A DNA stretch of 64,000 bases from Clostridiaceae bacterium (lineage in GTDB: Bacteria; Bacillota; Clostridia; Lachnospirales; Lachnospiraceae): the NCBI GenBank assembly GCA_910575795.1, contig CAJTGE010000027.1:1-64000 (forward strand), given 5' to 3'. Of this stretch, positions 7,212-62,116 are shown piece after piece; the stretch's first letter is position 1, and every line of letters begins with the position of its first letter. The position numbers and the translations under genes were made by a program. The notes under the pieces are model-generated. The model was given only the letters and a program-made list of their open reading frames with translations, did not search any database and had not been told where the DNA came from.

Positions 7212-7355
7212 GTAACAGTTCAGCCTTCGACTCCGCGAGGTGTTTTTTGTGAGCGAAGGTCACAGAAAACCCGAGGCTGCAAGCGCGATATTGTGCAGAA
7301 AACACAATTTCTGTGCATCATTTATTGCAGTTTAGCCGGGAGGCTGAACTGTAAC
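7212..7355. mobile_element. GTAA-ended miniature element (144 bp) with perfect 8-bp target duplication
   Basis: The ends GTAACAGTTCAGCCT (7212-7226) and AGGCTGAACTGTAAC (7341-7355) are inverted repeats with one mismatch. The octamer AACAAAAC flanks both sides (7204-7211 and 7356-7363), a perfect target-site duplication. There is no coding capacity. GTAA ends and 8-bp duplications are the hallmarks of IS66-family transposition. The comEC stop codon (7332-7334) lies inside the element. Confidence 0.85.
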
Positions 7356-13374: not shown

Positions 13375-15126
13375 TCAAGGCTGTTCCGCTGCGCCGGACG
13401 AGGTGTACAGGTGATAATAAACGCCTCTTCTCTCCATCAGCGCTTCATGGTTTCCCTCCTCGACAATCCGGCTTCCGGACAGCACCAGGATCCGGTCCGC
13501 CCCGCGGATGGTCGTCAGCCGGTGGGCGATGGTCAGCGTCGTCCGCCCCGCCGCCAGCTTATCAAGGGATTCTGACACCACGTGCTCGCTCTCATTATCC
13601 AACGCCGCCGTGGCCTCGTCAAGCAGCAGCACCTTCGGCTCTTTGAGAAATACCCTTGCAATGCTGATCCGCTGCTTCTGCCCTCCTGACAGCTTCACGC
13701 CGCGCTCGCCTACATAGGTATCATACCCATCTTTCAGAGCTTTAATAAATTCATGCGCGCCGGCAAGCTTTGCAGCCCCTATCACCTCGTCCTTCGACGC
13801 GCCTGGACGGCCATAAGCGATATTGTCATAAACGCTGCCGGAAAACAGATACACATCCTGCTGGACCACGCCGATACGGCTTCGCAGGCTCTCAAGCGTC
13901 GCCTTCCTGATATTCTGCCCGTCCAGCAGGATCTCCCCCCGCGTGGGATCATAAAAGCGGGGGATCAAGCTGCACAGCGTCGTCTTTCCGCCGCCGGACG
14001 GCCCCACCAGAGCGACCTTCTCTCCCGGCCGGATCGTCAGATCAATATCAGACAGCACAGGCGATCCGTCGTCCGGGTATTCAAACGATACATGGCGGAA
14101 TGTGATCTCTCCCTTTACGTCTGTCAGAGGGCGCGCGTCCTCCTCATCGAAAATATCGACATTCGCGTCCATCAGCTCCGTAAAGCGCTCAATCCCTGTC
14201 ATCCCCCGCTGGAACTGCTCCGCAAATTCAATGATGCGCCGGATGGTCGCCAGAAGCGTGGTCACATACATCGTATAAGCCACCAGATCCGCCGGTAAAA
14301 TGAGCCCTTTGATCATAAACAGGCCGCCGGCCAGAATCACCACCACATACATCAGTCCGTCAAACATACGGATCGTATTCTGAAATGCCGCCATGTATTT
14401 ATACGTCTGCCGCTTGATATGCAGAAATTCCTGGTTGTCCCGGCTGAATTTTCCAAGCTCCACCTTTTCGTTTGCAAAGGCGCGGACCACCTTATTCCCC
14501 AAAAGGCTGTCCTCGATGCGGGCGTTCAGCTCGCCGATATGGTTGCGCTGGTTGCGGAATGCCTTGCGCACCTGGAGGTTAAAATACGAGCACGAGATCG
14601 CCATCACCGGAATCAGCACGAATATGATCACCGTCAGAAGCACATTGATCCGCGCAAGAACCACAAAGGCCACGGCGGCCTTCAAAAATGCGATAAAGAA
14701 CTCCTCCGGGCAGTGATGCGCAAACTCCGTCACGTCAAACAGATCGCTCGTGATGCGCGACATGATCTGCCCGACCTTGGTATTATTGAAATAATTGTCC
14801 GAGAGCTTCTGCAGGTGCGCGAACGCGTCCTCCCGCATGTCCGTCTCGATCGAGGCCCCCATCACGTGGCCGTTATAGGCCATATAGAAGCTCGCTATGC
14901 CGTCTATCACACGCAGGATGAAGTATACGGCGCTGATACTCACAATCATGCGCACAGTGAGCGCAGAGAGATCCTGCATGCCCACGTTCGTGATATAGCG
15001 CAGGATCATCGGCAGCACCAGCTCGCAGACCGTGGTGAGCGCCGCGCAAAAAAGATCCAGCGCCATAATCCATATATATTTCCTGTAGTATGGGATAAAT
15101 CGTTTTAAAAGCGCGCCTGTCTTCAT
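13375..15126 (-). CDS. ABC exporter half-transporter (type I, fused TMD-NBD)
   Basis: A 583-residue half-transporter: six membrane helices over about 1-310 (ABC_membrane domain) and an ATPase domain from about 330. Walker A is GPSGGGKTT, the signature is LSGGQKQR and Walker B is VLLLDEATAALD, with an H-loop at AHRLTT; all are intact. It should work as a homodimer exporting lipid, peptide or drug; the substrate is unknown. The start is ATG 15126, directly after AGGAGG, not the longer frame. It is separate from degV by 101 bp containing small GGTTC inverted repeats, and it is preceded by the nested miniature elements. Confidence 0.93.
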   Translation of the reverse strand: MKTGALLKRFIPYYRKYIWIMALDLFCAALTTVCELVLPMILRYITNVGMQDLSALTVRMIVSISAVYFILRVIDGIASFYMAYNGHVMGASIETDMREDAFAHLQKLSDNYFNNTKVGQIMSRITSDLFDVTEFAHHCPEEFFIAFLKAAVAFVVLARINVLLTVIIFVLIPVMAISCSYFNLQVRKAFRNQRNHIGELNARIEDSLLGNKVVRAFANEKVELGKFSRDNQEFLHIKRQTYKYMAAFQNTIRMFDGLMYVVVILAGGLFMIKGLILPADLVAYTMYVTTLLATIRRIIEFAEQFQRGMTGIERFTELMDANVDIFDEEDARPLTDVKGEITFRHVSFEYPDDGSPVLSDIDLTIRPGEKVALVGPSGGGKTTLCSLIPRFYDPTRGEILLDGQNIRKATLESLRSRIGVVQQDVYLFSGSVYDNIAYGRPGASKDEVIGAAKLAGAHEFIKALKDGYDTYVGERGVKLSGGQKQRISIARVFLKEPKVLLLDEATAALDNESEHVVSESLDKLAAGRTTLTIAHRLTTIRGADRILVLSGSRIVEEGNHEALMERRGVYYHLYTSSGAAEQP

Positions 15127-15225
15127 TGTGTTCCTCCTGTGTGAAATGGCTGGGGGTGGTTTTTGTCCATTTAAGTATTGTATCACATACAGGGCGCGAT
15201 TTCACTAACTTTTCATAAATTAGGG

Positions 15226-15515
15226 GTTACAGTTCACGGGGCGGGAAAAACTGGCAGAAAACAGACGTCAGGCTCGCTTGCAAGGCGGTTTTCTGCCTGT
15301 TTCCCCATCGGGCGGACGCCCGATGCTTCTTGTCCGGCTATGCCGGACAAGAAGATGGCCGTAACAGTTCAGACAACCTGAACTGTTACGGCATCTGCCC
15401 ATGAAAATCGCTTCGCGATGGGGCAGATGCCTGCTGCCGCCACGTTTTCGTACGGTCAGCGCAGCAGGTGCGCAGACCTATCTGAACTGTTACAGATGGC
15501 CCCGTGAATCGTAAC
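15226..15515. mobile_element. Outer GTTAC/GTAAC miniature element, interrupted by a younger one
   Basis: The terminal repeats GTTACAGTTCACGGGGC (15226-15242) and GCCCCGTGAATCGTAAC (15499-15515) are inverted with two mismatches. The flanking octamers AATTAGGG (15218-15225) and AATTTGGG (15516-15523) match at seven of eight bases. Removing the inner 133-bp element and one copy of its 8-bp duplication leaves a 149-bp unit. The interior holds strong hairpins such as TTGTCCGGC/GCCGGACAA. The drifted duplication shows that this insertion is older than the inner one. Confidence 0.75.
15361..15493. mobile_element. 133-bp GTAA-ended miniature element, copy A
   Basis: It starts GTAACAGTTCAG and ends CTGAACTGTTAC, flanked on both sides by AGATGGCC (15353-15360 and 15494-15501), a perfect 8-bp duplication. 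Internal structure: hairpin I at element bases 1-29, hairpin II GCATCTGCCC/GGGCAGATGC with inner ATCGC/GCGAT, and hairpin III with CTGCTG/CAGCAG arms. There is no reading frame. Nearly identical copies lie at 42757 and 61150. The proposed transposase source is an IS66-family element elsewhere in the genome. Confidence 0.92.
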
Positions 15516-15533
15516 AATTTGGGGAATATACTC

Positions 15534-15672
15534 TTGCCGGAGGCGAAAAATTGTGATATAGTTAGTATAGAAAAGGGAAAGCCAGAGAAGCGGCCTACCC
15601 TTAATATGATGCTATTACGGATTATACATCAATCCGCAAGCCGTCACTATTGGTGGTAGTGGCGGCTATTTT
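15534..15672 (+). ncRNA. Candidate antisense RNA (antitoxin) with promoter
   Basis: On the plus strand TTGCCG (15534-15539), a 17-bp spacer and TATAGT (15557-15562) would start a transcript of about 100 nt. It would end at the hairpin GCCGTCACTA/TAGTGGCGGC (about 15639-15665) followed by ATTTT. The 3' end overlaps the last codons of the small toxin-like gene on the opposite strand. This is the TxpA/RatA-type arrangement, in which the antitoxin RNA pairs with the 3' part of the toxin mRNA. The RNA is inferred from promoter and terminator only. Confidence 0.55.
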
Positions 15673-15758
15673 CTGCCCTTAAAGATTGTATAGCACAATC
15701 CAATGAGGGCGCAAATGAATATTCCAGTCTGGATCAGATCCTGATATGTAATATACAT
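15666..15758 (-). CDS. Small holin-like toxin (type I toxin-antitoxin)
   Basis: A 30-residue peptide: a polar start MYITYQDLIQ, one hydrophobic helix (about residues 11-25) and a basic tail FKGRK. This matches the short holin-like toxin pattern of Firmicutes type I systems (TxpA/BsrG-like, Hol_Tox). The ATG at 15758 has a strong AAAGGAGGG site upstream. A promoter (TTGTCG-17 bp-TATAGT, 15878-15850 on the minus strand) gives a structured leader of roughly 85 nt. An antisense RNA candidate overlaps the 3' end. Expected action is membrane insertion and depolarisation when the antitoxin is lost; this is inferred from family resemblance. Confidence 0.7.
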   Translation of the reverse strand: MYITYQDLIQTGIFICALIGLCYTIFKGRK

Positions 15759-15849
15759 TGGCAATCCCTCCTTTCTTTCGTCTGGAGGGGCAGCCCCTCC
15801 GAAGATGGAGGGTAAGCCGCCTTGTGGCTCTCTGTTTTCCCATACGTTT

Positions 15850-15878
15850 ACTATATCATATGTCCTACAATCCGACAA
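15850..15878 (-). promoter_or_regulatory. Predicted promoter of the small toxin gene
   Basis: Minus-strand TTGTCG (15878-15873) and TATAGT (15855-15850) are spaced by 17 bp. The same -10 hexamer and near-identical -35 drive the antisense RNA candidate at 15534. The leader between promoter and ATG has a CCCTCC/GGAGGG hairpin. Confidence 0.55.
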
Positions 15879-15898
15879 TACAATTGGATAAAACGGTG

Positions 15899-15930
15899 AA
15901 AAAAGAACGGAAGCAAGCTCCGCTCTTTTT
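15899..15930 (-). terminator. Terminator after the MFS gene
   Basis: Minus-strand stem AAGAGCGGA/TTCCGTTCTT-type (nine pairs including one G-T) with a GCTTGC loop, followed by TTTTTT. The complementary strand also has a T run, so it may act in both directions between the MFS gene and the toxin promoter. Confidence 0.7.
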
Positions 15931-16033
15931 CCCGGTCTTCTTATTTTTTAGACATGAATCTTGAATCAACCGAACTTGACATCCGTGTCAGCCGCGCGTC
16001 TGCGAAATGCCGCCGGTTTTCAGAAAGATCCGA

Positions 16034-17320
16034 TTATTTTTCCATCCCTGCCGCCAAACGGGCCTTCCGGTTTAAGTTCAGCAAAAGGAACGCGGACACA
16101 AAGCCAATGGCAGAGAGTACGGACATGGCAATAAAGCAGTTCATATATCCCTTTAATGGCGTGGCGGTTCCCGCATATTTATCCACCATGCTGCCGGAAA
16201 GCGTATAGAGGAAAATCTCCGGCGCATAGGTACACAGGGATATCACGCCCGAGGCGGTTCCTGCCAGGCGTTTGGGAACCATGACCTCATCGATCGTCGC
16301 AAAATACAGCGCCTTGATTGCATAGAGGCAGAGGCCGTACACGACAAAGGTCGCGACGATCAGCGGAATGGACGACTTCCCGGCCGGGATCACCACATAA
16401 GCCAGGGCAAAGACGGTCATGCCGATAAAACCGAACTGGATGAACTTGATGCGGCTGCCCAGCTTATCTGCGATATAGCCGGCCGCAAACGCGCCTAACA
16501 TCATCATCATATAGGTGCGCACTACGGAGAGCGTTGCAACTGTGGAATCCGGAATCTCAAAAGCAGCGGAAAGATAAGCCGTAACATAACCGTGGAAAAT
16601 CAGGGCAGAGTAGTTACAGATACCTAACAGGCCGCACAGCCACACGCGCGGCATCTTCACAACCTCCATAAAATCCTTCATGTTTAATGGATTTGCTTTG
16701 GCCGCCGTTTCCTCTGCGGCCTTTGGCGCCGGCTTGTCGTTTTCCATGAACACAAGGCAGAGTACGCCGGCTATAAGCATCAGGACCGAGTAGTACATGA
16801 TCGCGTTCTGCATTCCGCCGATGCTGTCCGCGGCCCATGAAAAGACAGCCACAGAGCCAAAGGCGGCGATGGTGCCGATAAGGCCCCGCCCGCCCTCAAG
16901 CAGGCCAAATAGACGCCCCTGTTCCTCCGCCTCGCCCAGACGGTTGATGGATTTTACCATAGCGGCCCAGAAGGTGAATACGGTAGTGATGGCGAAAATC
17001 GCATGGATCACCACCAGCCATATAAAGCTGGGCATGGTCCAGAACCAGAAGCCGGCCAGCGCCGTACCGATACAGGAGAAGACAATCAGCGTCTTGCAAC
17101 TGAACTTATCGGCCAGGATGCCTCCGGGGAAATAACAGATAAAGTTGACGATACCATAAGCGGACATGATCAGCCCTAACTGCGTGGCGTTTGCGCCTGT
17201 GGCCTCCATCAGGGGAGCCATGTACGTTTCCCGAAGATACGGGAGCTTGGTAATGATTCCTCCCGCAAACGCTACCAGGATGAGCGTCATCCACTTGTTG
17301 CCTGCGCGTGCTTTTGTCAT
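16034..17320 (-). CDS. Major facilitator superfamily transporter
   Basis: A 428-residue MFS permease with 12 predicted helices and the motif-A-like loop GGILADKFSCKT between helices 2 and 3 (a second version, AGYIADKLGSR, sits at about 265-275). The arrangement resembles phosphate-ester or organic-anion antiporters of the UhpC/GlpT branch, but the substrate is not readable from sequence. It lies 94 bp downstream of the nucleotidyltransferase/choline-kinase fusion on the same strand. It may import choline or a related amino-alcohol or phosphodiester for that enzyme, playing the role LicB plays in classical lic loci. That pairing is an inference. AGGAGGT precedes the ATG. Confidence 0.85.
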   Translation of the reverse strand: MTKARAGNKWMTLILVAFAGGIITKLPYLRETYMAPLMEATGANATQLGLIMSAYGIVNFICYFPGGILADKFSCKTLIVFSCIGTALAGFWFWTMPSFIWLVVIHAIFAITTVFTFWAAMVKSINRLGEAEEQGRLFGLLEGGRGLIGTIAAFGSVAVFSWAADSIGGMQNAIMYYSVLMLIAGVLCLVFMENDKPAPKAAEETAAKANPLNMKDFMEVVKMPRVWLCGLLGICNYSALIFHGYVTAYLSAAFEIPDSTVATLSVVRTYMMMMLGAFAAGYIADKLGSRIKFIQFGFIGMTVFALAYVVIPAGKSSIPLIVATFVVYGLCLYAIKALYFATIDEVMVPKRLAGTASGVISLCTYAPEIFLYTLSGSMVDKYAGTATPLKGYMNCFIAMSVLSAIGFVSAFLLLNLNRKARLAAGMEK

Positions 17321-38920: not shown

Positions 38921-40882
38921 ATGATGAATTATCCAAATGGAATGAATCGGAGATTTTGTCCCGGTACGAATATGGGAAACTCCTGCGGCCAGGCTCCCGG
39001 CCTCCCCTCTGCCCCGGCGCGCTGCGGTCCCTGTAACTGCAGGCCCGTAAACTGCTACTGCCAGGGAGCGACCGGACCCACGGGACCCCAGGGTGTCCCG
39101 GGTATGATGGGGCCACGGGGCGCTACCGGGCCTACCGGACCCATGGGACCTCAGGGCATCCCGGGTATGATGGGGCCTCCGGGCGTAACCGGGCCTACCG
39201 GACCGACTGGACCGATAGGTCCGCAGGGCGTCCAGGGATTTCAGGGCGCTACTGGCGCAATGGGACCTCAGGGCGTTCAGGGTCTTCAGGGACCGGCCGG
39301 CGCTACCGGGCCCACCGGCGCGACGGGCGCTGACGGCGGTATTGGACCCACCGGACCCACGGGCGCAAACGGCGTAACCGGAGCGACTGGACCTATGGGA
39401 CCGGCCGGGGCAAACGGGGCTCAGGGGCCGCAAGGACCGACCGGAGCTACCGGCTCCGCTGGGGCGGCAGGTCCTGCCGGAGCGACAGGACCCACGGGAC
39501 CCACAGGCGCTACCGGGCCTGCCGGACCCATGGGCGCTGCCGGACCTACCGGCGCAAACGGGCCTACAGGCGCTACTGGAGCTACCGGAGCAAACGGGCC
39601 TATTGGCGCTACTGGAGCTACCGGCGCAAACGGGCCTGTTGGCGCTACTGGGCCCACCGGCGCGAACGGGGCTACCGGACCTGCGGGCGTTTCCGATACA
39701 CTTGCAGTTGGTACGACCACCACTGGCGCGCCTGGTACGAATGCATCTGTCATCGATTCTACTGGCGCGCCAAACCACGTATTTGATTTTATTATTCCCA
39801 GGGGCGCTGACGGAGTTACCGGGCCTACCGGACCCACCGGCGCGGCAGGCGTTGCCGGACCTGCAGGCGCTACCGGACCCACCGGCGCAAACGGCATTAC
39901 CGGGCCCACCGGTGCAGCGGGACCTGCGGGCGCTACCGGGCCTACCGGACCTACCGGCGCGGCGGGCGTTGCCGGACCTGCGGGCGCTACAGGACCCACC
40001 GGCGCAAACGGCGTTACCGGGCCCACCGGTGCAGCGGGACCTGCGGGCGCTACCGGGCCTACCGGACCTACCGGCGCGGCGGGCGTTGCCGGACCTGCGG
40101 GCGCTACAGGACCCACCGGCGCAAACGGCGTTACCGGGCCCACCGGTGCAGCGGGACCTGCGGGCGCTACCGGGCCTACCGGACCCACCGGCGCGGCGGG
40201 CGTTGCCGGACCTGCAGGCGCTACCGGACCCACCGGCGCAAACGGCGTTACCGGGCCCACCGGTGCAGCGGGACCTGCGGGCGCTACCGGGCCTACCGGA
40301 CCCACCGGCGCGGCGGGCGTTGCCGGACCTGCAGGCGCTACCGGACCTACCGGCGCAAACGGTGTTACCGGGCCCACCGGTGCAGCGGGACCTGCGGGCG
40401 CTACCGGAGCGACGGGCACGGCCGGGGCTACCGGCGCTACCGGGCCTACCGGACCTGCAAATGGTCTGAATGCTTATGCAAGTTTATACAGCACAACACC
40501 TCAGACCCTGAATCTGACTTTAGGAGGAACCACACAAATTCCGCTTGACTCTACCGGCCCGGTACAGGGAGCGACCTATGTGCCGGCAAACAGTATCACA
40601 GTGGCAACTCCCGGCACTTATGAGATCAATTATTCCACTACGCTGACAGCGGCATTGGCAACCACCGTCACCCTTGCCGTGAGAATCAACGGGACCAATA
40701 TCCCCAGCGCAACGATTTCCAGGGCGCTGGCAGTAGGAACCAGCTCCGTGTTTAATGGAAGTACCATTGTGACTTTAACGGCAGGAAACTTTATCGATAT
40801 GGCGCTTTCGGCTCTTCTGGCAGTAGGGATCACGCTTGGCAGCGGGGTCAACGCCACGCTGAGCGTTAAAAAGCTGAACTGA
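38921..40882 (+). CDS. Collagen-like spore-surface protein (BclA-like)
   Basis: A 653-residue protein: a Cys- and Pro-rich N-terminal leader of about 50 residues, then a long Gly-X-Y collagen region (mostly [12 protein letters not shown]) to about 525. The region is broken once by a non-collagen insert around residues 262-290 ([19 protein letters not shown] onward, ending FDFIIPRG). A C-terminal beta-rich domain of about 140 residues follows, like the trimerising globular head of BclA. Within the collagen part a 39-residue (117-bp) unit is repeated about five times (39840-40400). ATG 38921 follows AAGGAG. A sigma-K-like promoter precedes it, supporting an exosporium filament role. Confidence 0.88.
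39837..40405 (+). repeat. 117-bp tandem repeats inside the collagen-like gene
   Basis: About five head-to-tail copies of a 117-bp unit encoding 13 Gly-X-Y triplets (starting [18 protein letters not shown]). Copies differ by a few silent changes and one Ile/Val change in the first copy. Near identity at the DNA level makes the copy number likely to vary by slippage or recombination, changing filament length. Confidence 0.9.
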
Positions 40883-42756: not shown

Positions 42757-42889
42757 GTAACCGTTCAGACAACCTGAACGGTTACTGCATCTGCCCATGA
42801 AAATCGCTTCGCGATGGGGCAGATGCCTGCTGCCGCTACGTTTTCGTACGGTCAGCGCAGCAGGTGCGCAGACCTATCTGAACTCTTAC
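42757..42889. mobile_element. 133-bp GTAA-ended miniature element, copy B
   Basis: The same length and structure as copy A. Perfect 8-bp duplication CCGCCCCA at 42749-42756 and 42890-42897. In its first hairpin, A-T of the other copies is replaced by C-G on both arms (GTAACCG with CGGTTAC), a paired change that keeps the stem. The far terminal arm reads CTGAACTCTTAC instead of CTGAACTGTTAC. It lies between the trpB-like promoter and the XRE gene. Confidence 0.92.
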
Positions 42890-47820: not shown

Positions 47821-48048
<228 letters not shown>

Positions 48049-48317
48049 CCTTCAACTGTAAAATGCCCGGTCCCACCATCGGCATTTTTACAGCATTATT
48101 TCATGTGATTTCTTCCATTCGTATAATTCCTTCTCATGACTGCCATTCATTTACCTCATCATATATTTTTTTCACAAAAAAGTACAATGCCGGTTGCTTT
48201 ATGCGCTATAATTAAAACGCATACTAAAATCTCGTTAAAAGGAAGATTATTATTGTATCTTTAAAAAGAAATCAAATACTTTACTGAACCGCTTTCTGAT
48301 GCAGATACGTGCGGAAG

Positions 48318-48913
48318 TCAATCATGGCGAAAAGCAAAAATAAAGAACAGGATCTGTACTAATTTAATGTAGTCGCTTTGTACAGGTCCTGTGTTTATGC
48401 GTATTTCGGCATAATCCAGAACTTCATCGCCGGATAGCTGATCACCACAATAACGGTTACGGCGGGAATCCCAGCCGGTGTCACAGTCCGGCTGATGATA
48501 GATGCGGTTACACTTGCAATTGCGGATCTCTTTTTCCAGACATTTGCAGGTTCGTTTTTTTCGTGCCTGTGCAGCCGTGTAAACAGGCGTACCATCCCCG
48601 GCTTTTACAGAACACTGGACAGCTTGATATTTGCAGCCCTCCAGCTTTGCAATCTGCTCATCGGTCAGCTCGGAGTGTTCAATGTGCCTGCTCACCCGGT
48701 TCAAAAGGGATATGTCCTCAAGCTCAAATCTGTCAAACGTCTGGTACAGCATTTCGTCAATCTCAATATTCTGCTGCTTTCCACGACCATCCTTAAAAGA
48801 GAGGTAATAATGCCCTTGGTTATCGTCAAAGTGTACGGATTATACTTGACCTTTTTTTGGTTTGGATGCATTTCAAGCATTATAATTTCCTTCAAATCAA
48901 TGCTTTTTGACAA
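48318..48913 (-). pseudogene. Remnant of an ICE sigma-like gene fused to a transposase fragment
   Basis: The upstream part (about 48877-48660), after one frameshift, reads KVKYNPYTL then GHYYLSFKDGRGKQQNIEID, FDRFELEDISLLN and RHIEHSEL. This is the pattern of the sigma-70-like regulator carried by Tn916/Tn1549-type elements. It then runs into CNRIYHQPDCDTGWDSRRNRY, which resembles the DDE transposase segment QPDCxxGWDS. Neither part is complete. Its start overlaps the C45 hydrolase stop by 17 bp. Confidence 0.55.
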
Positions 48914-49967
48914 CTGCCTGCCCTCTTATTTTTAAGTCATGCAGTCGGTTGTCCATCACAAATTTCTTTTTTCTTGGGTCGCCCTCTGCACGGTAGACAA
49001 TTAAGCTCTCTAAGTCAAATACGGAACTCCAGGCCGTTTCAAAGTCTGGCTCATTGTCATACTGGCACATAAAGCCATAATCGCCCTTTAAAAGCTGCTT
49101 GGTGGTTTCAATATAATCCTCTTTTATCCGTCCCGAAACAAAACTGTCTATGACAACTTGATACCGTTTATGGGAATCATAATCATCCCCATTTGCATCA
49201 TCGTATGATTTCATTTCTTCAGATGTAAAACTGTTGACAGCACAAATAATTCTTCCATTATCAAAACTTTCTGCATCTCGGATTTTTTTTATGGATGGCG
49301 TACATTCAGCCACTGCCATATCGCCGCTTTTATCTGCAAGCAGAATATTACAGTTAGAAGCGATTGGAAGTTCCATTAATAGGGAAACTGCCTGCTCCGT
49401 ATTATCTGCTTTTTCGAGCAGATACCGCACGATGAAACAGGAATTAAATCCCGCCTGTATCTTATCAAGGCTGGTCATTACAAAAGTCATTGCAGCCGCA
49501 AGCCCATGTTCATTTATTCCCTCCTCCCCGTTAATAAAAGAGGATGTCGTAATATTAAATCTATTTCTGTTCTTCGGGGCATAGATTTCACTTTTGCTCC
49601 CCTCCCGCAGATAAGGCGGCAAGTCATTGTTTCTGCCATATAGGATTCTTCCGCCCTTTGCATATGCGAAAGCAGTGCATCCCCGAACTTCAACGGGAAT
49701 ATTGCTCTCCAAGTTATACATGCAGCATCCCATACATAGCATCCAAGAAGCAAAACGCAGATAATCCGCACCTATGGCGTCGCTCACCCCTCTGATTTCC
49801 TCGCATACCTCTGGGAAATATGTTCTTAATGCCGCTTCGCTCCGTTTCCCATGTTCCAGTTGAACTTCATCCAAATGGAGCGGGAAAGAAACCTGACATT
49901 TTTTGAATATCTTTCCACGCTTCACACCCATTTCATAATGGTCTCCCTTTAACCTTAAATGATACAC
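48897..49967 (-). CDS. C45 family autoproteolytic acyltransferase/hydrolase
   Basis: A 356-residue Ntn-hydrolase of the acyl-CoA:6-aminopenicillanate acyltransferase-like C45 family. The expected autocatalytic cleavage precedes the nucleophile Cys in VRGCTAFAYAKG (about residue 95), followed by GRNNDLP and NEHGLAAAMTF, conserved in the family. Members hydrolyse or transfer acyl groups on amides; the natural substrate here is unknown. It lies three bases after the AraC/GyrI regulator gene, so the two form an operon. Base composition is more AT-rich than the left part of the window. Confidence 0.85.
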   Translation of the reverse strand: MYHLRLKGDHYEMGVKRGKIFKKCQVSFPLHLDEVQLEHGKRSEAALRTYFPEVCEEIRGVSDAIGADYLRFASWMLCMGCCMYNLESNIPVEVRGCTAFAYAKGGRILYGRNNDLPPYLREGSKSEIYAPKNRNRFNITTSSFINGEEGINEHGLAAAMTFVMTSLDKIQAGFNSCFIVRYLLEKADNTEQAVSLLMELPIASNCNILLADKSGDMAVAECTPSIKKIRDAESFDNGRIICAVNSFTSEEMKSYDDANGDDYDSHKRYQVVIDSFVSGRIKEDYIETTKQLLKGDYGFMCQYDNEPDFETAWSSVFDLESLIVYRAEGDPRKKKFVMDNRLHDLKIRGQAVVKKH

Positions 49968-49970
49968 CGT

Positions 49971-50834
49971 TTAATCATCCTCCTTACTGACTGCAATCCA
50001 TACTTCGGAATGTCCGTGTACTGGCTGTCCGCTGCAAATCGGATACACTTCAATATCTGGCAGCTCTGCATATTTATACCCGGAGAACGGCAGCCATTCC
50101 ATATAGAACCGCCTGAACACACTCTGCACATCTTCCTTAAAACGCCCATCATTGTCAAATATTACCCATGTAGCCGCAGGGATTTCCAATCCATACATGC
50201 CCGCAGGGGCAGGGGAATTTGCAGCAACGCCGATGTAGTAATAAATTTCTTTCAGGTTTTTATATACGCTGATTCCTAAAATTCCTCCCGGCTCTCCATT
50301 AGACAGCCCGCATATTTCCAAAAATTGTTTTCCCTGCAATGACGCTTTCCAAAATGCTGGGACAATCCTTAAATTTTCTTCCATATCCGAAGTCAAAGGG
50401 ATACGGATGCCCACAATACGCAGGGGCGGCTTTTCCGCAATGCGATATGTCATAGCGCTTCCTCCTGTGATTTCAATCTTAAACTGAATTGACGGATATG
50501 CTTGCAGGACACTTCCCCCTAGCTTAGCTGCCGTTGGCGTGATGCCATGAACATTCTGAAAAGCCCGATTAAAAGCAGTCGGAGAGGAATATCCATATTT
50601 TAATGCAACGTCTATTACCCTGCTGTCTGCCCGCTGCAATTCAAATGCCGCCTGCGTCATTTTTCGGCGGCGTATGTATTCCGCCAAAGAAACACCCGAA
50701 ACATAGGAAAAAACACGCTGGAAATAATAGGGGGAACAACACGCAATGCGGGCTGCTTCATCATACGATATTTCCTTATCCAGATTATCTTCTATGTAAT
50801 CAATGGCTTTTCCAAGCTTTTTCAACCATTCCAT
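49971..50834 (-). CDS. AraC family regulator with GyrI-like effector domain
   Basis: A 287-residue regulator. It has an N-terminal AraC double HTH (about 8-105; SYDEAARIACCSPYYFQRVFSYVSG and ALKYGYSSPTAFNRAF) followed by a GyrI/SOUL-like ligand-binding domain (about 125-285) ending HGHSEVWIAV. This SoxS-Rob/BmrR-like layout usually senses hydrophobic cations or drugs. It is immediately upstream of the C45 hydrolase, with a 3-bp gap, implying that the hydrolase is its target. AGGAGG precedes the ATG. Confidence 0.9.
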   Translation of the reverse strand: MEWLKKLGKAIDYIEDNLDKEISYDEAARIACCSPYYFQRVFSYVSGVSLAEYIRRRKMTQAAFELQRADSRVIDVALKYGYSSPTAFNRAFQNVHGITPTAAKLGGSVLQAYPSIQFKIEITGGSAMTYRIAEKPPLRIVGIRIPLTSDMEENLRIVPAFWKASLQGKQFLEICGLSNGEPGGILGISVYKNLKEIYYYIGVAANSPAPAGMYGLEIPAATWVIFDNDGRFKEDVQSVFRRFYMEWLPFSGYKYAELPDIEVYPICSGQPVHGHSEVWIAVSKEDD

Positions 50835-50952
50835 CCTTTTACCTCCTTGCCGTTAAGGATAGCTTAATCCGATTTATATTTCCTCTCTTTTTCTGCTATC
50901 TTTTGTAAACACAAGTAATTTCTCACTCCTATCAATCGTTTCTGCCTTTCTG

Positions 50953-52293
50953 TCAAAAATAATTGTACTGTTTTCGATGCCTGCACAGCAGATATATCGT
51001 CAGCATAAGCGTGAGCAGTTCCGCAAGCGGGACTGCAAGCCATACGCCTGTCACCTCTAAAAATCTCGGCAACGCCAAAAGGAACACCGTAATAAATCCA
51101 AACGTCCGCAGGAAAGATATGGCGGCAGACGCTTTCCCATTGGATAATGCCGTAAATAATGCGGATGAAAAAATATTGCATCCAGAGAACATAAAGCTGA
51201 ATGAAAAAATGCTAAATCCATTCTTTGTAATCTCAAAAACATTCCTGTTATTCTCCGCAAATACCTTGGCAATACTTTCCCCGCCAAGCAAAGAAAACAG
51301 AAATACAAATATGGAAATCCCCACTATAAAGCAGGAGCAACTACGGACGGTCTTTTTTAGCTGTTTTACATTCCCGCTCCCATAGTTATAGCTTACGACG
51401 GGGGCTGTACCCATAGAAAAGCCAATATAAAGCGTTGTTAAAAGGAACTGCGAATAGATAAGTACCGTAATCGCAGCTACGCCGTCCTCGCCCAGCAGCT
51501 TCATCATTGTTACATTAAACAGAAATGTCGTTACGGCAGCCGAACACTGGCTTACCATTTCCGACGCGCCATTGGAACAGCTTTTAAGCAAAACAGATGC
51601 GTCCATGTCAGGCTTGCAAAAGTGCAATTCACTTCTTTTCATCAGAAAAAAAATTGTACCGATGATTGACGGTATCATATATCCGATGCCTGTCCCAATA
51701 GCAGCTCCCTTGATTCCCATTTGCAGTAAAATGATAAAGACATAATCAAAAACAATATTGGCAATCCCCGCCAGAACAGCAAGCACTAAGCCTAATGTCG
51801 GTTTCCCCGCCGTCACAAACAGATTCTGATACAGCACCTGCATCATGTTAAAAGCGGCGAAAATGAGCTGTGTCGTCAGATAATCCCTGCAATATGGGAA
51901 CAATATTTCACTTGCACCCAATCCCCAGATAATTTCATCCAAAAAGAAAATCCCTGCCGCTGTAATCAGCAGACCGATAACCGCCCCTGCCACGACAATC
52001 AACGTGAAATTGCTTCGGGCTTCCTCTGTGTTTCCATTCCCCATTTTCTTCGCAACAACCGCACTTCCGCCTGTCGCAAGCATCGTCCCCAGACCGACAA
52101 TCAGATTGATGACGGGGCAGACGATATTGATGGACGACAAAGCGTTCGTGTCTACAAACCGTGCGACGAAAATTGTGTCTACAATGGTGTATAATCCCAT
52201 AAACAGCATCATCACCATGCTTGGGAAAGCAAATCGGATAAGTGATAGGGCGTTAAAGCTCTCTGCCAATGGGTTTTTCTGTGTTTCGCTCAT
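50953..52293 (-). CDS. MATE family efflux transporter
   Basis: A 446-residue transporter with 12 helices in two MATE bundles; the first helix region includes FPSMVMMLFMGLYTIVDTIFVARFV and the fifth segment KMGNGNTEEA. It exports drugs or metabolites using a Na+ or H+ gradient. ATG 52293 is chosen because AAGGAGG lies upstream; it overlaps the AraC-GNAT gene by 41 bp, so translation is coupled. The upstream regulator is therefore its likely activator, and together they look like an inducible efflux unit. Confidence 0.92.
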   Translation of the reverse strand: MSETQKNPLAESFNALSLIRFAFPSMVMMLFMGLYTIVDTIFVARFVDTNALSSINIVCPVINLIVGLGTMLATGGSAVVAKKMGNGNTEEARSNFTLIVVAGAVIGLLITAAGIFFLDEIIWGLGASEILFPYCRDYLTTQLIFAAFNMMQVLYQNLFVTAGKPTLGLVLAVLAGIANIVFDYVFIILLQMGIKGAAIGTGIGYMIPSIIGTIFFLMKRSELHFCKPDMDASVLLKSCSNGASEMVSQCSAAVTTFLFNVTMMKLLGEDGVAAITVLIYSQFLLTTLYIGFSMGTAPVVSYNYGSGNVKQLKKTVRSCSCFIVGISIFVFLFSLLGGESIAKVFAENNRNVFEITKNGFSIFSFSFMFSGCNIFSSALFTALSNGKASAAISFLRTFGFITVFLLALPRFLEVTGVWLAVPLAELLTLMLTIYLLCRHRKQYNYF

Positions 52294-53140
52294 TCCTTGT
52301 TTCCTCCTTGTTCTCTGGAAGAAGCACGAAACGCTGCGTCGGGTAGCCATATTCCACAAGCAGTTCCCGTTCTGCAAATCCAAGACGGCGGTATTCTTCC
52401 CGCCAGCCCGTATCTGCCTTATCGCCTGCACGGTATGTCGTCAAGGTAATCTCTTTCCCGCAAAGCAGTTCCTCTGCCAGCTTATCAATGAACAGCTTTG
52501 TAATGCCGAGATGCCGATACTGCGGATGGACAGCCAGAAAGTCTATGCTGCCTGTGTCGGGCGAAAATCCCATCACGCCAATAGCCATATCGTCATCCCG
52601 TAAAATCAAAGCCTTTTTATCCGCAATATACTGATGCAGATTTGCGGCGTAATCTTCCTTATCCAGACATGGATAGCCGTCAATCGTAAGGCTTACCAGT
52701 TCCATCCAGTCATCCGCATCTTCGGGCGTGGCAAATTTTATATTGTCTTTTGTCAAATCCATTTTTACAAGCTCCTCCTTCAGATAAATTTCCAGCTGTA
52801 ACGGGTAGAAGTTTTCCGTTTCCCGAAATTCCGCAGGGGAAGTCTTATACATCGCCTTAAAAATATCCGTAAATGCCTGCTGGCTTTCATACCCGCTCAT
52901 AAGGGCAATCTCGATAATCGGTTTTGCCGAAAACACCAGAAGTTTTGCCGCTTCTGTAAGCTGCCGCCGTTTTGCGTAGTCGTGGATAGTCAAGCCGGCT
53001 GTCTTTGTAAAAATCCGATGCAGGTGGTATTTGGAATAGTGCAGTGCCGATGCCACCATATCTAAATCCATCTTTTCGTGCAGATGTTCTTCGATATAGC
53101 GGATAGCCTGTGAAACAATTCGTACTGTCTGACCTTGCAT
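52253..53140 (-). CDS. AraC HTH-GNAT acetyltransferase fusion regulator
   Basis: A 295-residue fusion. An N-terminal AraC DNA-binding domain (about 5-105; MDLDMVASALHYSKYHLHRIFTK, in two parts, and IALMSGYESQQAFTDIF) is followed by a GNAT fold (about 130-285) with the acetyl-CoA loop region VHPQYRHLGITKLFIDKL. The acetyltransferase half may sense or modify the same compound that MATE exports. ATG 53140 follows AAAGGAGG. It is the first gene of the unit with MATE. Similar AraC-GNAT proteins exist in Clostridia without known ligands. Confidence 0.88.
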   Translation of the reverse strand: MQGQTVRIVSQAIRYIEEHLHEKMDLDMVASALHYSKYHLHRIFTKTAGLTIHDYAKRRQLTEAAKLLVFSAKPIIEIALMSGYESQQAFTDIFKAMYKTSPAEFRETENFYPLQLEIYLKEELVKMDLTKDNIKFATPEDADDWMELVSLTIDGYPCLDKEDYAANLHQYIADKKALILRDDDMAIGVMGFSPDTGSIDFLAVHPQYRHLGITKLFIDKLAEELLCGKEITLTTYRAGDKADTGWREEYRRLGFAERELLVEYGYPTQRFVLLPENKEETRNERNTEKPIGREL

Positions 53141-53374
53141 TTTGCTCCCTCCTTTCTTCATTCTCGCCCACGCTTTATGGGCATAGAGGCACACCCTTGT
53201 GGTGTTTCCTTTTTTCCGCACTTTTTAAGCATTATGATATGCCTGTGTGGGATTTCAATGAAATATTGTAACACACGGAGTTTTCTATCTTTTCATCATT
53301 CTTGCTATGTTTTTGACAGTTGTTTTCTATCCTTACTATTGCATTTCATTGTGCGCCTTATCATAACACTTAAC

Positions 53375-54106
53375 TCACCTTTCCTTTAAAATTACATTCT
53401 TACAGTCTATTTCTTTTCTTATCCACTCCCGCATTACATTCAACTGATATTCGGTGTGAAACCAATGCTCACAATTCTCAGCAACAGTAAGATTACAGCT
53501 AAATTTTTTCGTAAACTGTTCTACAAGGCAACGGTCAATCAGATTATCATTTTCCCCATACAATATTTTAGTCGGAAAGTCCCATTGTCTAATTGGATGC
53601 TCTAATACATACTTCCAATATTCCCATGAAAGCGTCTGCCCGAAGTCAGTTGGAATCAGACGCTGCTTTTCTAACTGATTTTGTGATACACCTGCCCATT
53701 CCATCATCTTTGACATGAGTTCTTTCATATCCAGAACAGGAGAAACAAACAGACAGTTTTTTAACGGCTCATTCCCAAAACTTAACATACTGAACCATGC
53801 GCCGATGCTGCTCGCATATAAAGAAATCTGCTTCCACCTATCTTTGACAAAATCCATAATCCCAGATAACTCTGGCACAATGCTCCAAGGCTCAAATTCT
53901 ACTGCCCCATTTACCCGCTCCCCATGTTTCGGCAAATCTACGCTAAGAACCTGCCACCCGAAACAGCAAGCCACGTCTGCGAATACTGCCGCTTCTTCTT
54001 TACATCCTCCCTGACCATGTACATAAAAATATAGCTTTCTTGATGGAAGACCCCAAAGAAAAGCAGGTATTCCATTTATTTCAAATTCCTTTTTCATTCT
54101 CGCCAT
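53375..54106 (-). CDS. Alpha/beta hydrolase
   Basis: A 243-residue soluble alpha/beta hydrolase. The oxyanion region is YFYVHGQGG, the nucleophile elbow ASSIGAW (Ser), the acid Asp in LYGENDN and the His in ENCEHWFH. It is likely an esterase or lipase-like enzyme with unknown substrate. It is divergent from a TetR regulator with two identical-type operators in between, so its expression is probably repressed by that protein. No signal peptide. Confidence 0.87.
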   Translation of the reverse strand: MARMKKEFEINGIPAFLWGLPSRKLYFYVHGQGGCKEEAAVFADVACCFGWQVLSVDLPKHGERVNGAVEFEPWSIVPELSGIMDFVKDRWKQISLYASSIGAWFSMLSFGNEPLKNCLFVSPVLDMKELMSKMMEWAGVSQNQLEKQRLIPTDFGQTLSWEYWKYVLEHPIRQWDFPTKILYGENDNLIDRCLVEQFTKKFSCNLTVAENCEHWFHTEYQLNVMREWIRKEIDCKNVILKER

Positions 54107-54149
54107 CCATTCTTTCCCCTTTCAAAATACTACTAAAAATAGTATAAAC

Positions 54150-54164
54150 ACTAATATCATTAGT
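54150..54164. promoter_or_regulatory. TetR operator 1
   Basis: ACTAATATCATTAGT, a perfect 6+6 palindrome around three bases, 44 bp upstream of the hydrolase start. Confidence 0.7.
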
Positions 54165-54223
54165 ATTCTATCTGATCATACTCTCACTGTCAATAACTAA
54201 TGGCAGAAAATCTAATAATAATA

Positions 54224-54252
54224 TTGACTTTACTAATCTCATTAGTTAAAAT
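54224..54252 (+). promoter_or_regulatory. tetR-type promoter with operator 2 in its spacer
   Basis: TTGACT (54224-54229), 17-bp spacer, TAAAAT (54247-54252). The spacer contains ACTAATCTCATTAGT (54232-54246), the same palindrome as operator 1, so repressor binding would block RNA polymerase directly. The two operator centres are 82 bp apart. Confidence 0.75.
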
Positions 54253-54284
54253 AGTTAGAAAATATCTTTGCGAGAGGTAAACTT

Positions 54285-54863
54285 ATGCGGATAACAAAAG
54301 CTGATGTAATACAAACTGCTGCGGATATAGCGGATAAAAACGGCTTAAGCAATGTTTCTTTAAAAGTCGTTGCCGAAAGCCTTAATATCCGTACCCCGTC
54401 ATTATATAACCACATAGACAGCCTTGAAGCCATGCTTAGGGAAATCGCCCATAATGGTATGAAAACCATGAATGAACGGATGATGCAGGCAGCTATCGGC
54501 AAAATTGGGGACGATGCAATAAAAAGCGCAGGCATCACATACCTTAACTACATGATTGAACATCCTGGAATTTATGAAACAATACAATGGGTAACCTGGC
54601 ATGGCACTGAGGAAACAGAGAAAATATTTGATAACTACCTTTCACTTTTAAAAACGCTCGCCCTTTCATGCAATTTTAATCCAGTAAACATTGATGAAAT
54701 TTTAAACTTATTGACAGGCGTTCTTCACGGCTACACAACCTTGCAACTGCGATATGCGTTTACCAAACCTGATGAAGTCAGGACATCCTTATCCACCGCC
54801 CTTGATACCGTACTGGCAGGGCTGCATCAAAAGTATGACCAACATGAAAAGGAACATTTATGA
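54285..54863 (+). CDS. TetR/AcrR family regulator
   Basis: A 192-residue TetR-type repressor with HTH at about 10-50 (KNGLSNVSLKVVAESLNIRT then PSLYNHIDS) and a C-terminal domain containing QWVTWHGTEE, as in the WHG-domain subgroup. It probably controls itself and the divergent hydrolase through the ACTAAT/ATTAGT palindromes. The stop overlaps the start of the next gene (ATGA). A GCGAGAGG site precedes the ATG. Confidence 0.9.
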   Translation: MRITKADVIQTAADIADKNGLSNVSLKVVAESLNIRTPSLYNHIDSLEAMLREIAHNGMKTMNERMMQAAIGKIGDDAIKSAGITYLNYMIEHPGIYETIQWVTWHGTEETEKIFDNYLSLLKTLALSCNFNPVNIDEILNLLTGVLHGYTTLQLRYAFTKPDEVRTSLSTALDTVLAGLHQKYDQHEKEHL

Positions 54864-55441
54864 TGGCAAATAACATATGTTACTTATACAATGCCCAAGC
54901 AGGCATTGAACTGATTTTCTGCAGAGACTCAACTATATCTATATCTTACCCGTTACATAATCACGTTTCCGTACTAACAATCGGCATCATATTGGATGGC
55001 TCGCTTGTCCTTACAACGAATAAGGAAACAAGGGTTTATAAACAAAACGAAACATTTACAATATTCCCATATGTGCCACATAGCATTTCGGCACATAACA
55101 GCTATACCCTGCTTACCCTGTTCATTGATAAGAATGCTGTAAATGACGCATCTGTTACCACCATACAAAAACGTATCGGACTTCTTCTGATGCAGGCTCT
55201 GAATATGGGAAAAATTAACCAATATCAGATATTACAGCTATTAAACTGTTTGGATAAAATTGCGGATTCTTCCACTTGGCAGCTTAAAAACCATCCCCCA
55301 TATATCCACAACTTAAAAAAGCAGTTGGAATTATACCCAGAATGCAAACTTTCTGTCGAGGAATTGGCACAAAATCAATGGATTAAAAATAAATATAAGC
55401 AAAAAGAGTGGTATTTAAAATGGAGCAGGAAATCAAATTAG
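54860..55441 (+). pseudogene. Truncated AraC family regulator
   Basis: The frame keeps an N-terminal cupin-like sensor (YPLHNHVSVLTIGIILDGSL, FPYVPHSISAH) and a linker. The DNA-binding region is cut after the first helix (LYPECKLSVEELAQN) and replaced by lysine-rich unrelated residues. The protein should bind ligand but not DNA. It overlaps the TetR stop by four bases, so it would be co-translated. The end abuts an OmpR fragment, which points to a deletion joining two genes. Confidence 0.7.
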
Positions 55442-55669
55442 CATTTATTGAATTTGAAATTCTGTGCCTGTTGACAGGCAATCCCGGAAGAGTTTTTAGC
55501 AAAGAACAAATATATACTATTGTCTGGAATGAACTGTATTATAGTGATTATAATATTGTTTGAGCTATATCTGCAATATAAGGGAAAAATAGAAGATAAG
55601 CCAAGTGAACCCATTTATATAGAGACAATTTGGGGCATAGGCTGTCGTTTCAACCAATATCTGAAATAA
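55420..55669 (+). pseudogene. C-terminal DNA-binding fragment of an OmpR-type response regulator
   Basis: Frame one reads FEILCLLTGNPGRVFSKEQIY then WNELYYSDYNIV and meets TGA at 55561. The next frame gives NIREKIEDKPSEPIYIETIW then GIGCRFN, the normal end of an OmpR winged helix. One lost base explains the shift. The receiver domain is absent. The following 360 bp (55670-56028) contain only short frames and no supported gene. Confidence 0.8.
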
Positions 55670-56028
55670 GACATGAAACCAGAATACTACATAAAACGCA
55701 TCATGGAAATGTGCACAACAGGCTATGGAATCCTCTCCATCCCCACCTTATTTAAAAAATATTTCCTGTCTGTTGTCCCCTCCTTTTTATGCCTGTTGAC
55801 TGGTTCTTTCCAGTGTTTGTTGAATGCACCATATAGTAACCGCTGCTTTGTTAAAGTAAAAGCATATAGCGATATTATTTTGGGGGCTAAATAACCTGAT
55901 TGTAGCAGAATATTGCTGCCCAAAAAGCAAATCAGGTATCGTTTATGCATAGCAACTGTCACTTTTTTAAGCTAAAGTCAACAAAGCTTGGAAAGAACCT
56001 GTTGAGCGCTTGCTTTTATTCTATCATT

Positions 56029-56619
56029 TCAACGCTTATCTATGATTTTATCAACTAACCCAAAATTCATTGCCTCAGTTGCCGACATATAGTTATCGCG
56101 TTCTGTTGCAAGGGCAATTTCCTCAATGCTTTTTCCAGTATTCCCTGCTAAAATAGAGTTTAGGCGTTCTTTACTTTTTTGTATATGGTCGGATGTTATT
56201 TTTATATCTGTTGCCTGTCCTTGAATACCATTTCCATGAATTGCTGGCTGGTGTATCATTATTTCTGCGTTTGGCAAAGCGATACGTTTTCCTTTCGTTC
56301 CACCAGCTAATAAAAAAGCTCCAAAGCTGGCGGCAAGACCAATACAAATAGTTGAAACATCACATTTTATATATTGCATTGTATCATAAATAGCAAAACC
56401 GGCTGATACAGAACCTCCGGGACTGTTTATATATAACTGTATATCTTTTTCGGGGTCTTGCGCTTCTAAAAACAACATTTGAGCAATAATCAGACTGGCC
56501 GACATATCGCTTACTTCTTCCCCCAAAAAAACAATTCTATCGGATAGTAACCGTGAAAAAATATCATAACTTCTTTCTCCACGGCTTGTCTGTTCAATTA
56601 CATAAGGTATCGTACTCAT
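56029..56619 (-). CDS. clpP: Accessory ATP-dependent Clp protease proteolytic subunit
   Basis: A 196-residue ClpP with an intact triad: Ser98 in [14 protein letters not shown], His123 in MIHQPAI and Asp175 in [12 protein letters not shown] replaces the usual SMG. The N-terminus ([24 protein letters not shown]) keeps the axial-loop region for ClpX/ClpA-type partners. It is in a region of mobile remnants, next to an AraC-type gene rather than tig/clpX, so it is probably a second, acquired ClpP and not the housekeeping one. It overlaps the AraC stop by four bases. Confidence 0.93.
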
Positions 56620-57035
56620 GCAGCATTCTCCATAATTCGTGTAATAAATTTGTAACTAAAGATATAAGAACAACACATAGAAATTCTGTTTTGTTTTGGC
56701 ATAAAGATTCCAATATCCCTATAAATTTTAGGTGGATATAAATATATTTGTTTAAAAGCAAACGAAAATGACTGTTGTGTATCATATCCAGCTTCATACG
56801 CAATTTGCATTATTGGCTTATCTGTTCTTACCAGCTTTTCAGCAGCAACAGTGAGTCTGCGGTTTCGTAAATATTTATACATGGTAATTCCTGTATACTC
56901 TGTAAAAATGCGATTAAGATAGAATTTGGAATAACCAATATTTTTTGATATATTATCTAAGCTGATTTCTTTCTCTAAATTCTTCTCAATATAATCTATG
57001 ACTTTTTTTACAACTTCTTTTTGGTCTTTCATCAT
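56616..57035 (-). CDS. Short AraC-type DNA-binding protein coupled to clpP
   Basis: A 139-residue protein consisting essentially of an AraC DNA-binding domain (about 8-105; [20 protein letters not shown] and [18 protein letters not shown]) plus about 30 residues without a ligand domain. It is similar to SoxS/MarA-like stand-alone activators. The stop overlaps the clpP start (ATGA), so both are made together and it may activate its own operon. GGAGGG lies upstream of the ATG. Confidence 0.85.
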
Positions 57036-57166
57036 ACCCTCCTTGCGCTCTTATCTATTATAGCAAGTTTAAATATACGTGTCTTAATAAAAAATGCTAT
57101 TTTGGTATCAATTTTAAAATTTATACTCTTTGATATGAGGAATGAGAGAATACCTACTGTTATCCC

Positions 57167-58018
57167 TTGCACAAGAGTATCTTTATCCCTGCAATGAGTG
57201 CAATTCCTAAAATGCGTATCATAAAAATCCTCCTACTTGTTTTCCTACTGGATATCAATAAAAAAACTTTAATGTGGTATGATGAAATTGGTTTGCTGAA
57301 ACCTGCCTGTATTAAAGAAAACGGCTATCGGTATTACAGCTACCAGCAGAGTGCAGCATTGGAAACAATTTTAATGCTGCGGGAAATGAATGTATCTCTT
57401 GATGAAATCAAACAATTTATGGAAAATCGCACCATTGATAATTTTGGTTCTCTTTTGCAGGAAAAAATTATAGAGTTAAATCGAACAATTTCCCATTAAA
57501 AATCTATACAAAAAATCCTAATCAATCATAAGCAGAATATGGATATGCTTCGTTCTTTGGATATAGCAGAAATCAGCCTTGTGGAAAAACAAAGCTGCTA
57601 TTTGGTGGTTGTTGATACGGCTGAAAACTTACCACTTGAACAAGAAATCGAAAAGGTTATTTCTGAAACAAAAAAATATCAGCTTCGCCGTCTGCACGAT
57701 GCTTCTTATGGCCCTATGCTCCCGTCGGAGAATTTGTATCAAGGAAATTTTAGCGAATATACTGCCCTTTATATCGAAATGTCTTTTCCGGTTTCTAAAA
57801 AGGGGCTTCACTTGCAGCCTGCCGGAACATATCTAAGGGCTTTCTGTAAGGGAAATTGGGACAAACTTCCCAAAAGATACAAAGAAATCCCTGCCTATGC
57901 GAAAAAGCAAGGATTAACTTTATGCGGCTATGCTTATGAAACAGGTATCAATGAGCTGGTTATTGACAGTATAGATGATTATATCACTCAAATTGAAATT
58001 CCTATTAAGCCGGAATAA
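57167..58018 (+). pseudogene. MerR-family regulator with GyrI-like domain, broken
   Basis: The DNA-binding part survives from KKTLMWYDEIGLLKPACIKE through RYYSYQQSAALETILMLREM, but the first HTH helix is replaced by unrelated hydrophobic residues. An in-frame TAA (57497-57499) interrupts the coiled coil. The C-terminal effector domain (57539-58018) is otherwise open and resembles a BmrR/GyrI-like binding domain (YGPMLPSENLYQGNFSEYTALYIEM in pieces). At least two lesions, so inactive. Confidence 0.8.
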
Positions 58019-58094
58019 TGGAAGGCTGTCTGTCAAGTTCTTGCGTGTTACTTTACCGCACATGAGCATTCGCGCCAGATTGCGATAGGTAAGC

Positions 58095-58238
58095 CTACAG
58101 TTTCAAATGCTTCAGCTCCGTATCGGCCCTTGCGTAGATCTCTGTAGTTTTGATATCACTGTGGCCCAGAAAGTCACAGATATAGATCAGGTTTACACCT
58201 GCCTGCAACAGATGGACCGCCTTGGAATGGCACAGCAT
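58095..58238 (-). pseudogene. C-terminal fragment of a tyrosine recombinase
   Basis: The frame reads CHSKAVHLLQAGVNLIYICD then FLGHSDIKTTEIYARADTE, the last third of a phage-type integrase with the GHS box and the catalytic Tyr in TTEIYAR. The box II region reads CHSKA where RHSKA is expected. The rest of the gene is gone. Confidence 0.8.
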
Positions 58239-58328
58239 ATTTGGGATTAAGGTGGGCAGAAAAGATAAATCGTTAAGAGAGGTTTAAGGACGTTTGCTAC
58301 ACTTAAGAAGCATTTCACAACAAATAGG

Positions 58329-58357
58329 TTGTTTAAATGATTTAGACAAACTATAAT
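58329..58357 (+). promoter_or_regulatory. Predicted promoter of the lipoprotein pair
   Basis: TTGTTT (58329-58334), 17-bp spacer, TATAAT (58352-58357), 35 bp upstream of the first lipoprotein start. Confidence 0.6.
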
Positions 58358-58391
58358 ATCTGTTATTTCTATGATAACAAGGAGGTAATTT

Positions 58392-58943
58392 ATGAAACTA
58401 AAAAAAGTAATGATATTACTCGGTACTGTCTGTATATTGAATACAATGGTTACAGGATGTGGTTCCGGTTCTATTGCTAAGACAGAAGAAAACCAGGCAG
58501 ACGAAGCATTATTAGAGGAATTAAATGATGCGCCGTCAAAAGAGATTGATGGGAACACGGATGGACTGCAGGAAAATACAGCAGGTAAATGGCAGGTACT
58601 AGAGCCGGATGTCGCTGCTGCTGTTGATGCGGATTTTCTGGGTAAGGTCTGGAAGATTGAAGAAGACTCATTTTTCATTGCCGAAAAGAAAGTAAAAATT
58701 CTTGATGACGGTTCCTTATCATACAGTTCTCCAAGCTCCAATGCTGATCTCCCTGATTCCCGGTTGATTCATGTAATTTTGGAAGATGATACCCGTTTTT
58801 ATTTAAAAGCCACTGATGGAAATGGAGAAAGCTCTGAGGACACAAAAGCTGAATTTCAGGACTTGAAGGTACATATGTCTGTTGAAATGAAGGGCAGCTT
58901 TAAAAATGATAAATTTTATGCCACGGAAATACGATTCTTTTAG
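58392..58943 (+). CDS. Uncharacterised lipoprotein 1
   Basis: A 183-residue lipoprotein: signal peptide with lipobox MVTGC (Cys at about 23), an acidic linker and a C-terminal beta-rich domain from about 80 (DFLGKVWKIEEDSFFIAEKK onward) that resembles the small OB/DUF5666-like folds in which a metal- or ligand-binding barrel is predicted. AAGGAGG precedes the ATG. It is followed after 18 bp by a second lipoprotein with a related fold, so the two may act together at the cell surface. The function is unknown. Confidence 0.75.
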   Translation: MKLKKVMILLGTVCILNTMVTGCGSGSIAKTEENQADEALLEELNDAPSKEIDGNTDGLQENTAGKWQVLEPDVAAAVDADFLGKVWKIEEDSFFIAEKKVKILDDGSLSYSSPSSNADLPDSRLIHVILEDDTRFYLKATDGNGESSEDTKAEFQDLKVHMSVEMKGSFKNDKFYATEIRFF

Positions 58944-58961
58944 AAAGTGAGGGAAAAAATT

Positions 58962-60300: not shown

Positions 60301-60309
60301 TTTAAGGCA

Positions 60310-60556: not shown

Positions 60557-60559
60557 GCT

Positions 60560-62109: not shown

Positions 62110-62116
62110 GCCTATT

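Follow-up and report, generated by a model that had tools for sequence, protein, structure and literature searches.

Two short inverted-repeat elements, one inside the other, occupy positions 15218-15523 of the 64,000-nucleotide stretch of DNA analyzed here (the window). The locus raises the questions of whether a single family of miniature elements inserted into itself at different times, as the first-pass annotation proposed, or whether distinct elements arrived in succession, and of what moved them. We favor, with a probability of about 0.86, two successive insertions of different non-autonomous MITEs, a 149-bp element first and a 133-bp element later; an IS66-family transposase from the divergent, ISBst12-like branch presumably mobilized both in trans.

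Anatomy of the nested locus

The outer element (15226-15515) measures 149 bp without its insert and has 17-bp inverted ends with two mismatches (88% complementary); the octamers that flank it, AATTAGGG and AATTTGGG, match at seven of eight positions. The inner element (15361-15493) is 133 bp long, has 13-bp inverted ends that are 100% complementary, and lies between two identical octamers AGATGGCC (8/8). Read from left to right, the locus consists of AATTAGGG, the end GTTACAGTTCACGGGGC, the outer interior, AGATGGCC, the 133-bp element, a second AGATGGCC, the remainder of the outer end, and AATTTGGG (Table 1). Both the imperfect outer ends with their 7/8 octamers and the perfectly duplicated inner copy within them, as described in the first-pass annotation, were thereby confirmed at the positions given there. 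A 29-bp palindrome in the left part of the inner element contains a second, inverted copy of the inner-element end sequence.

Table 1. Coordinates of the nested elements and the genes on either side (window positions)
Feature	Position	Strand	Remark
Transporter-like gene	13375-15186	minus	named by reading the translation
Left outer target-site duplication AATTAGGG	15218..15225	.	7/8 versus 15516-15523
Left outer terminal inverted repeat GTTACAGTTCACGGGGC	15226..15242	+	arm pairs with 15499-15515; same end type in own-genome relatives
Outer element, left part (three-hairpin family by prediction, 149 bp without insert)	15226..15360	+	
Left inner target-site duplication AGATGGCC	15353..15360	.	belongs to the outer element
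Inner 133-bp element, perfect 13-bp inverted ends GTAACAGTTCAGA	15361..15493	+	arms 15361-15373 / 15481-15493
29-bp palindrome, left of inner element	15361..15389	+	arms 15358-15372 / 15378-15392
Right inner target-site duplication AGATGGCC	15494..15501	.	8/8
Outer element, right remainder	15502..15515	+	right end = 15499-15501 plus this part
Right outer target-site duplication AATTTGGG	15516..15523	.	
Transporter-like gene	16034-17320	minus	named by reading the translation

Both elements have the size and ends of MITEs and, at 149 and 133 bp, are too short for a transposase gene. Inverted 17-mer pairs with at most two mismatches, a span of 100-599 bp, and flanking octamers matching at 7/8 or better occur four times in the window, the 15226/15515 pair included, and not once in any of eight first-order Markov re-samplings of it.

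Elsewhere in the window, a long array of 9-bp-based repeats at about 39069-40600 has, at the nucleotide level, the look of a collagen-like coding repeat. G+C drops from about 0.54 to 0.38-0.45 across 48001-64000, which is possibly an acquired island.

Two repeat families with one type of end

The inner element belongs to an abundant family. In its own genome, a 6.2-Mb draft assembly of 273 contigs, this family occupies at least 40 places (40 of 148 candidates scored), which range from 75 to 100% in identity and include that of the window; a search with the inner element plus its octamers returned at least 48 matches, eight of which are short opposite-strand matches of the palindrome. The 30 best of the 40 places yielded an alignment of 27 copies including the window's, after three (L028, L029, and L030) that failed the end pattern were dropped. 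Among the 26 other copies, the target duplication is a perfect 8 bp in 16 and matches at 7/8 or better in 23; in the manner of MITEs, the family thus combines many dispersed copies with a target duplication of constant length. Two further copies lie in the window itself (42757-42889 and 61150-61282), both with perfect 8-bp duplications. The inner element had no match in a plasmid search, one exact pattern of it had none in IMG/VR, and the whole locus stretch had none in a phage search.

Of the outer family, eight other near-full-length copies in this genome have 86-91% identity to the window's element, similar recognizable ends, and lengths of 140-155 bp, a range into which the 149 bp that the first-pass annotation had given for the uninterrupted outer element fits well. 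The octamers of nine other own-genome copies match at 8/8 in four cases, at 7/8 in one, and at 2-5 of 8 in four, i.e., a duplication of at least 7/8 accompanies five of the nine, again a MITE-like trait. Beyond its own genome, the left part of the element has matches in 9 of 98 genomes (own included), and the core pattern was found in at least 116 stretches of named genomes, with Enterocloster, Hungatella, Lachnoclostridium, and Eisenbergiella among the genera of the 80 stretches listed; the window's own genome is presumably that of a gut bacterium of this kind (Lachnospiraceae). The 80 stretches contain 85 cores. An end pair was obtained for 55 of them, with octamers matching at 7/8 or better in 23 and less well in 32, pairs having been picked partly by octamer match, which favors high values; the other 30 cores gave no end pair, some because they lie at a stretch edge. 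In one named genome (L323, 5500-6080), an outer-type element carries the core three times in tandem with a 145-bp period.

The nesting had originally been read as a sign that one family was active over time. This was not borne out, as the outer and inner interiors are unrelated: the two parts match each other within the stretch at their ends only, and own-genome searches with them returned different places. By sequence comparison they are two families, which have the end type GTWACNNTTCA and the 8-bp duplication in common and nothing else. Forty genome stretches (about 0.8 Mb) and the window were scanned for pairs of such ends no more than 5 kb apart whose octamers match at 7/8 or better, which gave 11 candidates of 80-537 bp, five of them in the window (raw counts without a shuffled control). 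None is longer than 537 bp, and the scanned DNA therefore holds no autonomous element; ends of this kind seem to be common to several short families. Short inverted-end elements were also noted at 7212-7355 of the window, with flanking octamers AACAAAAC matching at 8/8, and at 59847-60001, with octamers matching at 7/8.

The outer family is predicted to fold into three hairpins, with a long stem that varies strongly in sequence yet stays paired. The fold predicted from 57 distinct aligned copies comprises 53 pairs, 30 of which show changes on both sides; 96.4% of its cells are paired, whereas 200 column shuffles averaged 83.2% and never exceeded 84.1%. These figures refer to a fold predicted from the same alignment without a slid control and are inflated by related copies. 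Since the two arms of a long palindrome can also be corrected against one another, the paired changes are suggestive only. At the locus, Rfam gave nothing above the gathering score, and its loose-threshold matches to CRISPR-DR29 (21.4 bits versus 39) and Pseudomon-groES (17.9 versus 50) were taken as chance. That the outer family is a widespread gut-Clostridia element, spread by ISBst12-like transposases, whose fold is selected either for folded-strand transposition or for an RNA role is a tentative proposal that we consider doubtful.

A candidate mover in a divergent IS66 branch

IS66 transposases gave 19 matches in the own genome. Ordinary IS66 elements were rejected as movers, because a GTAAGCG end stands beside the gene in each of the eight best of these matches (L110-L117); the link drawn here therefore concerns the divergent branch only. 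In one of the eight (L116, contig C22), a GTTAC end is present as well, 39 bp beyond the GTAAGCG end, and thus looks like the remnant of another element. At L129 (4862-4901), a stretch that ends in GTTACTTTTCACGGG extends 39 bp past the GTAAGCG end of an IS66 element; this IS66 element has perhaps inserted into another element with such ends.

The divergent branch was approached from a transposase fragment on contig C11 of the own genome, with the end GTTACTTTTCACGGGTC lying 67 bp past the stop codon. A search of 195 genomes with this fragment yielded seven with a match, its own included. An end of the GTTACTKTWCA type lies 58-106 bp past the transposase stop at the starting locus and at all five of the others with 3' sequence, six genomes in total; the seventh locus runs off its contig. 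One of them is a complete element (L240) of 2358 bp with similar ends on both sides and an 8/8 duplication GCCGGAAT, and another (L239) has both ends, identical over 20 bases, between flanking octamers that do not match. The other four loci have no matched octamer pair besides chance-level candidates in L244.

The full-length proteins of these two candidate movers, L239 and L240, match the IS66-type DDE transposase family PF03050 with 64.4 and 90.5 bits, respectively (cut-off, 23.1), and score 137 and 162 bits against the NCBIfam IS66 equivalog, below its 180-bit cut-off. The ISBst12 group is characterized by a lone transposase gene that lacks the companion genes usual in IS66 elements; upstream of the transposase, L239 and L240 each have a small extra ORF (100 and 89 aa) with no Pfam match. 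The outer element thus shares its type of end with elements bearing IS66-like transposases, as MITEs do with their movers; the inner ends agree less exactly, at 11 of 13 positions with the nearest autonomous end (GTTACTGTTCAGA, in L240).

Comparable features are found in the ISBst12 group. In the accessible part of its description, ISDge4 has the ends GTGACTACTCAGCA and GTAACTGCTCAGCA and an 8-bp repeat (PMC12898284); the elements studied here resemble this group, as far as that part goes, in having similar ends (compare GTAACTGCTCAGCA), an 8-bp target duplication, and an IS66-type transposase in their likely autonomous partners. They differ from it in that the window elements are too short to encode a transposase and in that the partners have the small extra upstream ORF and fall below the NCBIfam IS66 cut-off.

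It is on these grounds that the ISBst12-like branch probably moved both elements: its transposase would mobilize the two MITEs in trans, acting on ends of the same kind. The own draft genome supplies some reason to consider instead another DDE transposase that makes 8-bp duplications and stands outside this branch. A search of its 273 contigs for ISBst12-like transposases found a single match, a decayed C-terminal piece, and no intact element, and the transposase search covered the IS66 type. We nevertheless regard such a mover as quite unlikely, since the same type of end recurs shortly past the stop of an ISBst12-like transposase in six genomes (the starting locus and 5/5 others) and bounds one element on both sides within an 8/8 duplication.

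Order of insertion and place among known repeats

In the succession that we favor, the 149-bp element would have entered between the two transporter-like genes, duplicating 8 bp. One letter of this outer duplication would have changed afterwards, and the 133-bp element of the other family would then have entered near the right end of the outer element, duplicating 8 bp of it. The relative age order that the first-pass annotation had read from the nesting is supported by uninterrupted relatives as well as by divergence. All eight other near-full-length outer copies in the own genome lack the inner element; at the corresponding point, four of them have AGATGAGCC once and four have variants thereof, where the window has AGATGGCC twice. 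The distance of inner copies to a leave-one-out consensus ranges from 0 to 10 of 133 positions (median, 3.8%), and the window's copy, at 0/133, is the least diverged of the 27 aligned, with a consensus that leans toward it because it was built from the best matches to that very copy. Between the window's outer copy and the consensus of the eight others, 11 of 149 positions differ, an ordinary figure among these relatives, whose own counts run from 7 to 16. This contrast (0/133 versus 11/149; Fisher p about 0.001), together with the mutated outer octamer, agrees with the order demanded by the nesting itself, although consensus distances could be biased by subfamilies and by the choice of copies, and both consensuses are drawn toward the window's own copies. 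We take the order of insertion, like the anatomy, the copy numbers, and the existence of uninterrupted relatives, as shown by the data.

The same data bear on whether the 290-bp composite could have moved here as a single element after receiving its insert elsewhere. The outer ends are still recognizable, so such a composite could in principle move. This course of events is very improbable, however, because no composite with matched octamers other than the window's was reported among the loci scanned (the window, L032-L050, and L268-L347, with cores too near a locus end skipped) and because the outer duplication is already mutated, whereas the inner copy shows no difference from its consensus, so that the insert looks younger than the arrival of the outer element. 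The view that the outer arms pair by chance and merely frame an ordinary inner insertion, as might be argued from the 7/8 octamers and the two mismatches in the arms, can be dismissed with near certainty, refuted as it is by dispersed relatives (in the own genome, eight near-full-length ones that resemble the outer element in ends and length, and five of nine with duplications of their own), by outer matches in 9/98 genomes (own included) and in named genomes, and by the lack of any comparable pair in eight resampled windows.

Related genomes were also inspected for sites that the elements never entered. Among the matches listed for eight genomes of the genus, own included, the exact empty site joining 15217 to 15524 was not found. 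Of these genomes, only G002 shows listed matches to the left and to the right of the intergenic region: the left match stops at window position 15217, the next starts at 16035, and the 119 bp between them did not align. Without 15218-16034, this genome has neither element, but the right flank is missing too, and G002 thus speaks neither for nor against the join of 15217 to 15524. For two other outer copies, G002 offers partial empty sites. At one (L036), alignment of the left flank continues as far as the element and one related octamer, GACAGTTT, remains, with a noisy right side; at the other (L032), alignment is clean on the right, and mismatches and another small insert occur on the left. 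As a substitute empty site, paralogs of the right flank (L224-L227) were rejected: the similarity of L224 begins at about 15518 and does not include the left side, and the other copies begin further in. A repeated module at about 15518-15885, which has relatives both in the own genome and elsewhere in the genus, contains a 30-codon hydrophobic ORF, MYITYQDLIQTGIFICALIGLCYTIFKGRK, on the minus strand (15666-15758); we take it to resemble the small holin-like type I toxins of bacteria.

Nesting of small elements in prokaryotes is already published and well known. By their general description, the BOX, RUP, and SPRITE repeats of Streptococcus pneumoniae have other ends and other movers than the window elements. 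In the accessible part of their description, these pneumococcal repeats resemble the window elements in being short, structured, dispersed, and inserted into one another (PMC3049150). For the MITEs and other small mobile repeats of Haloquadratum walsbyi, the accessible part of the source tabulates 192 cases of a mobile element inserted in another and describes MITEs that share only their ends and duplication length with their movers (PMC3119063). In these traits they resemble the window elements; they differ in being archaeal, and the comparison is one of description. Within the accessible parts of the open-access papers listed on IS66-type MITEs, on MITEs and repeats in these bacteria, and on nested repeats (including PMC3281130 and PMC9769881), no description of either family was found.

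To conclude, the novelty of these findings is modest and lies in two many-copy families whose ends are like those of a little-studied IS66 branch. The locus records two transposition events in a clean order, and it connects both abundant repeat families with a plausible mover from this poorly studied branch.
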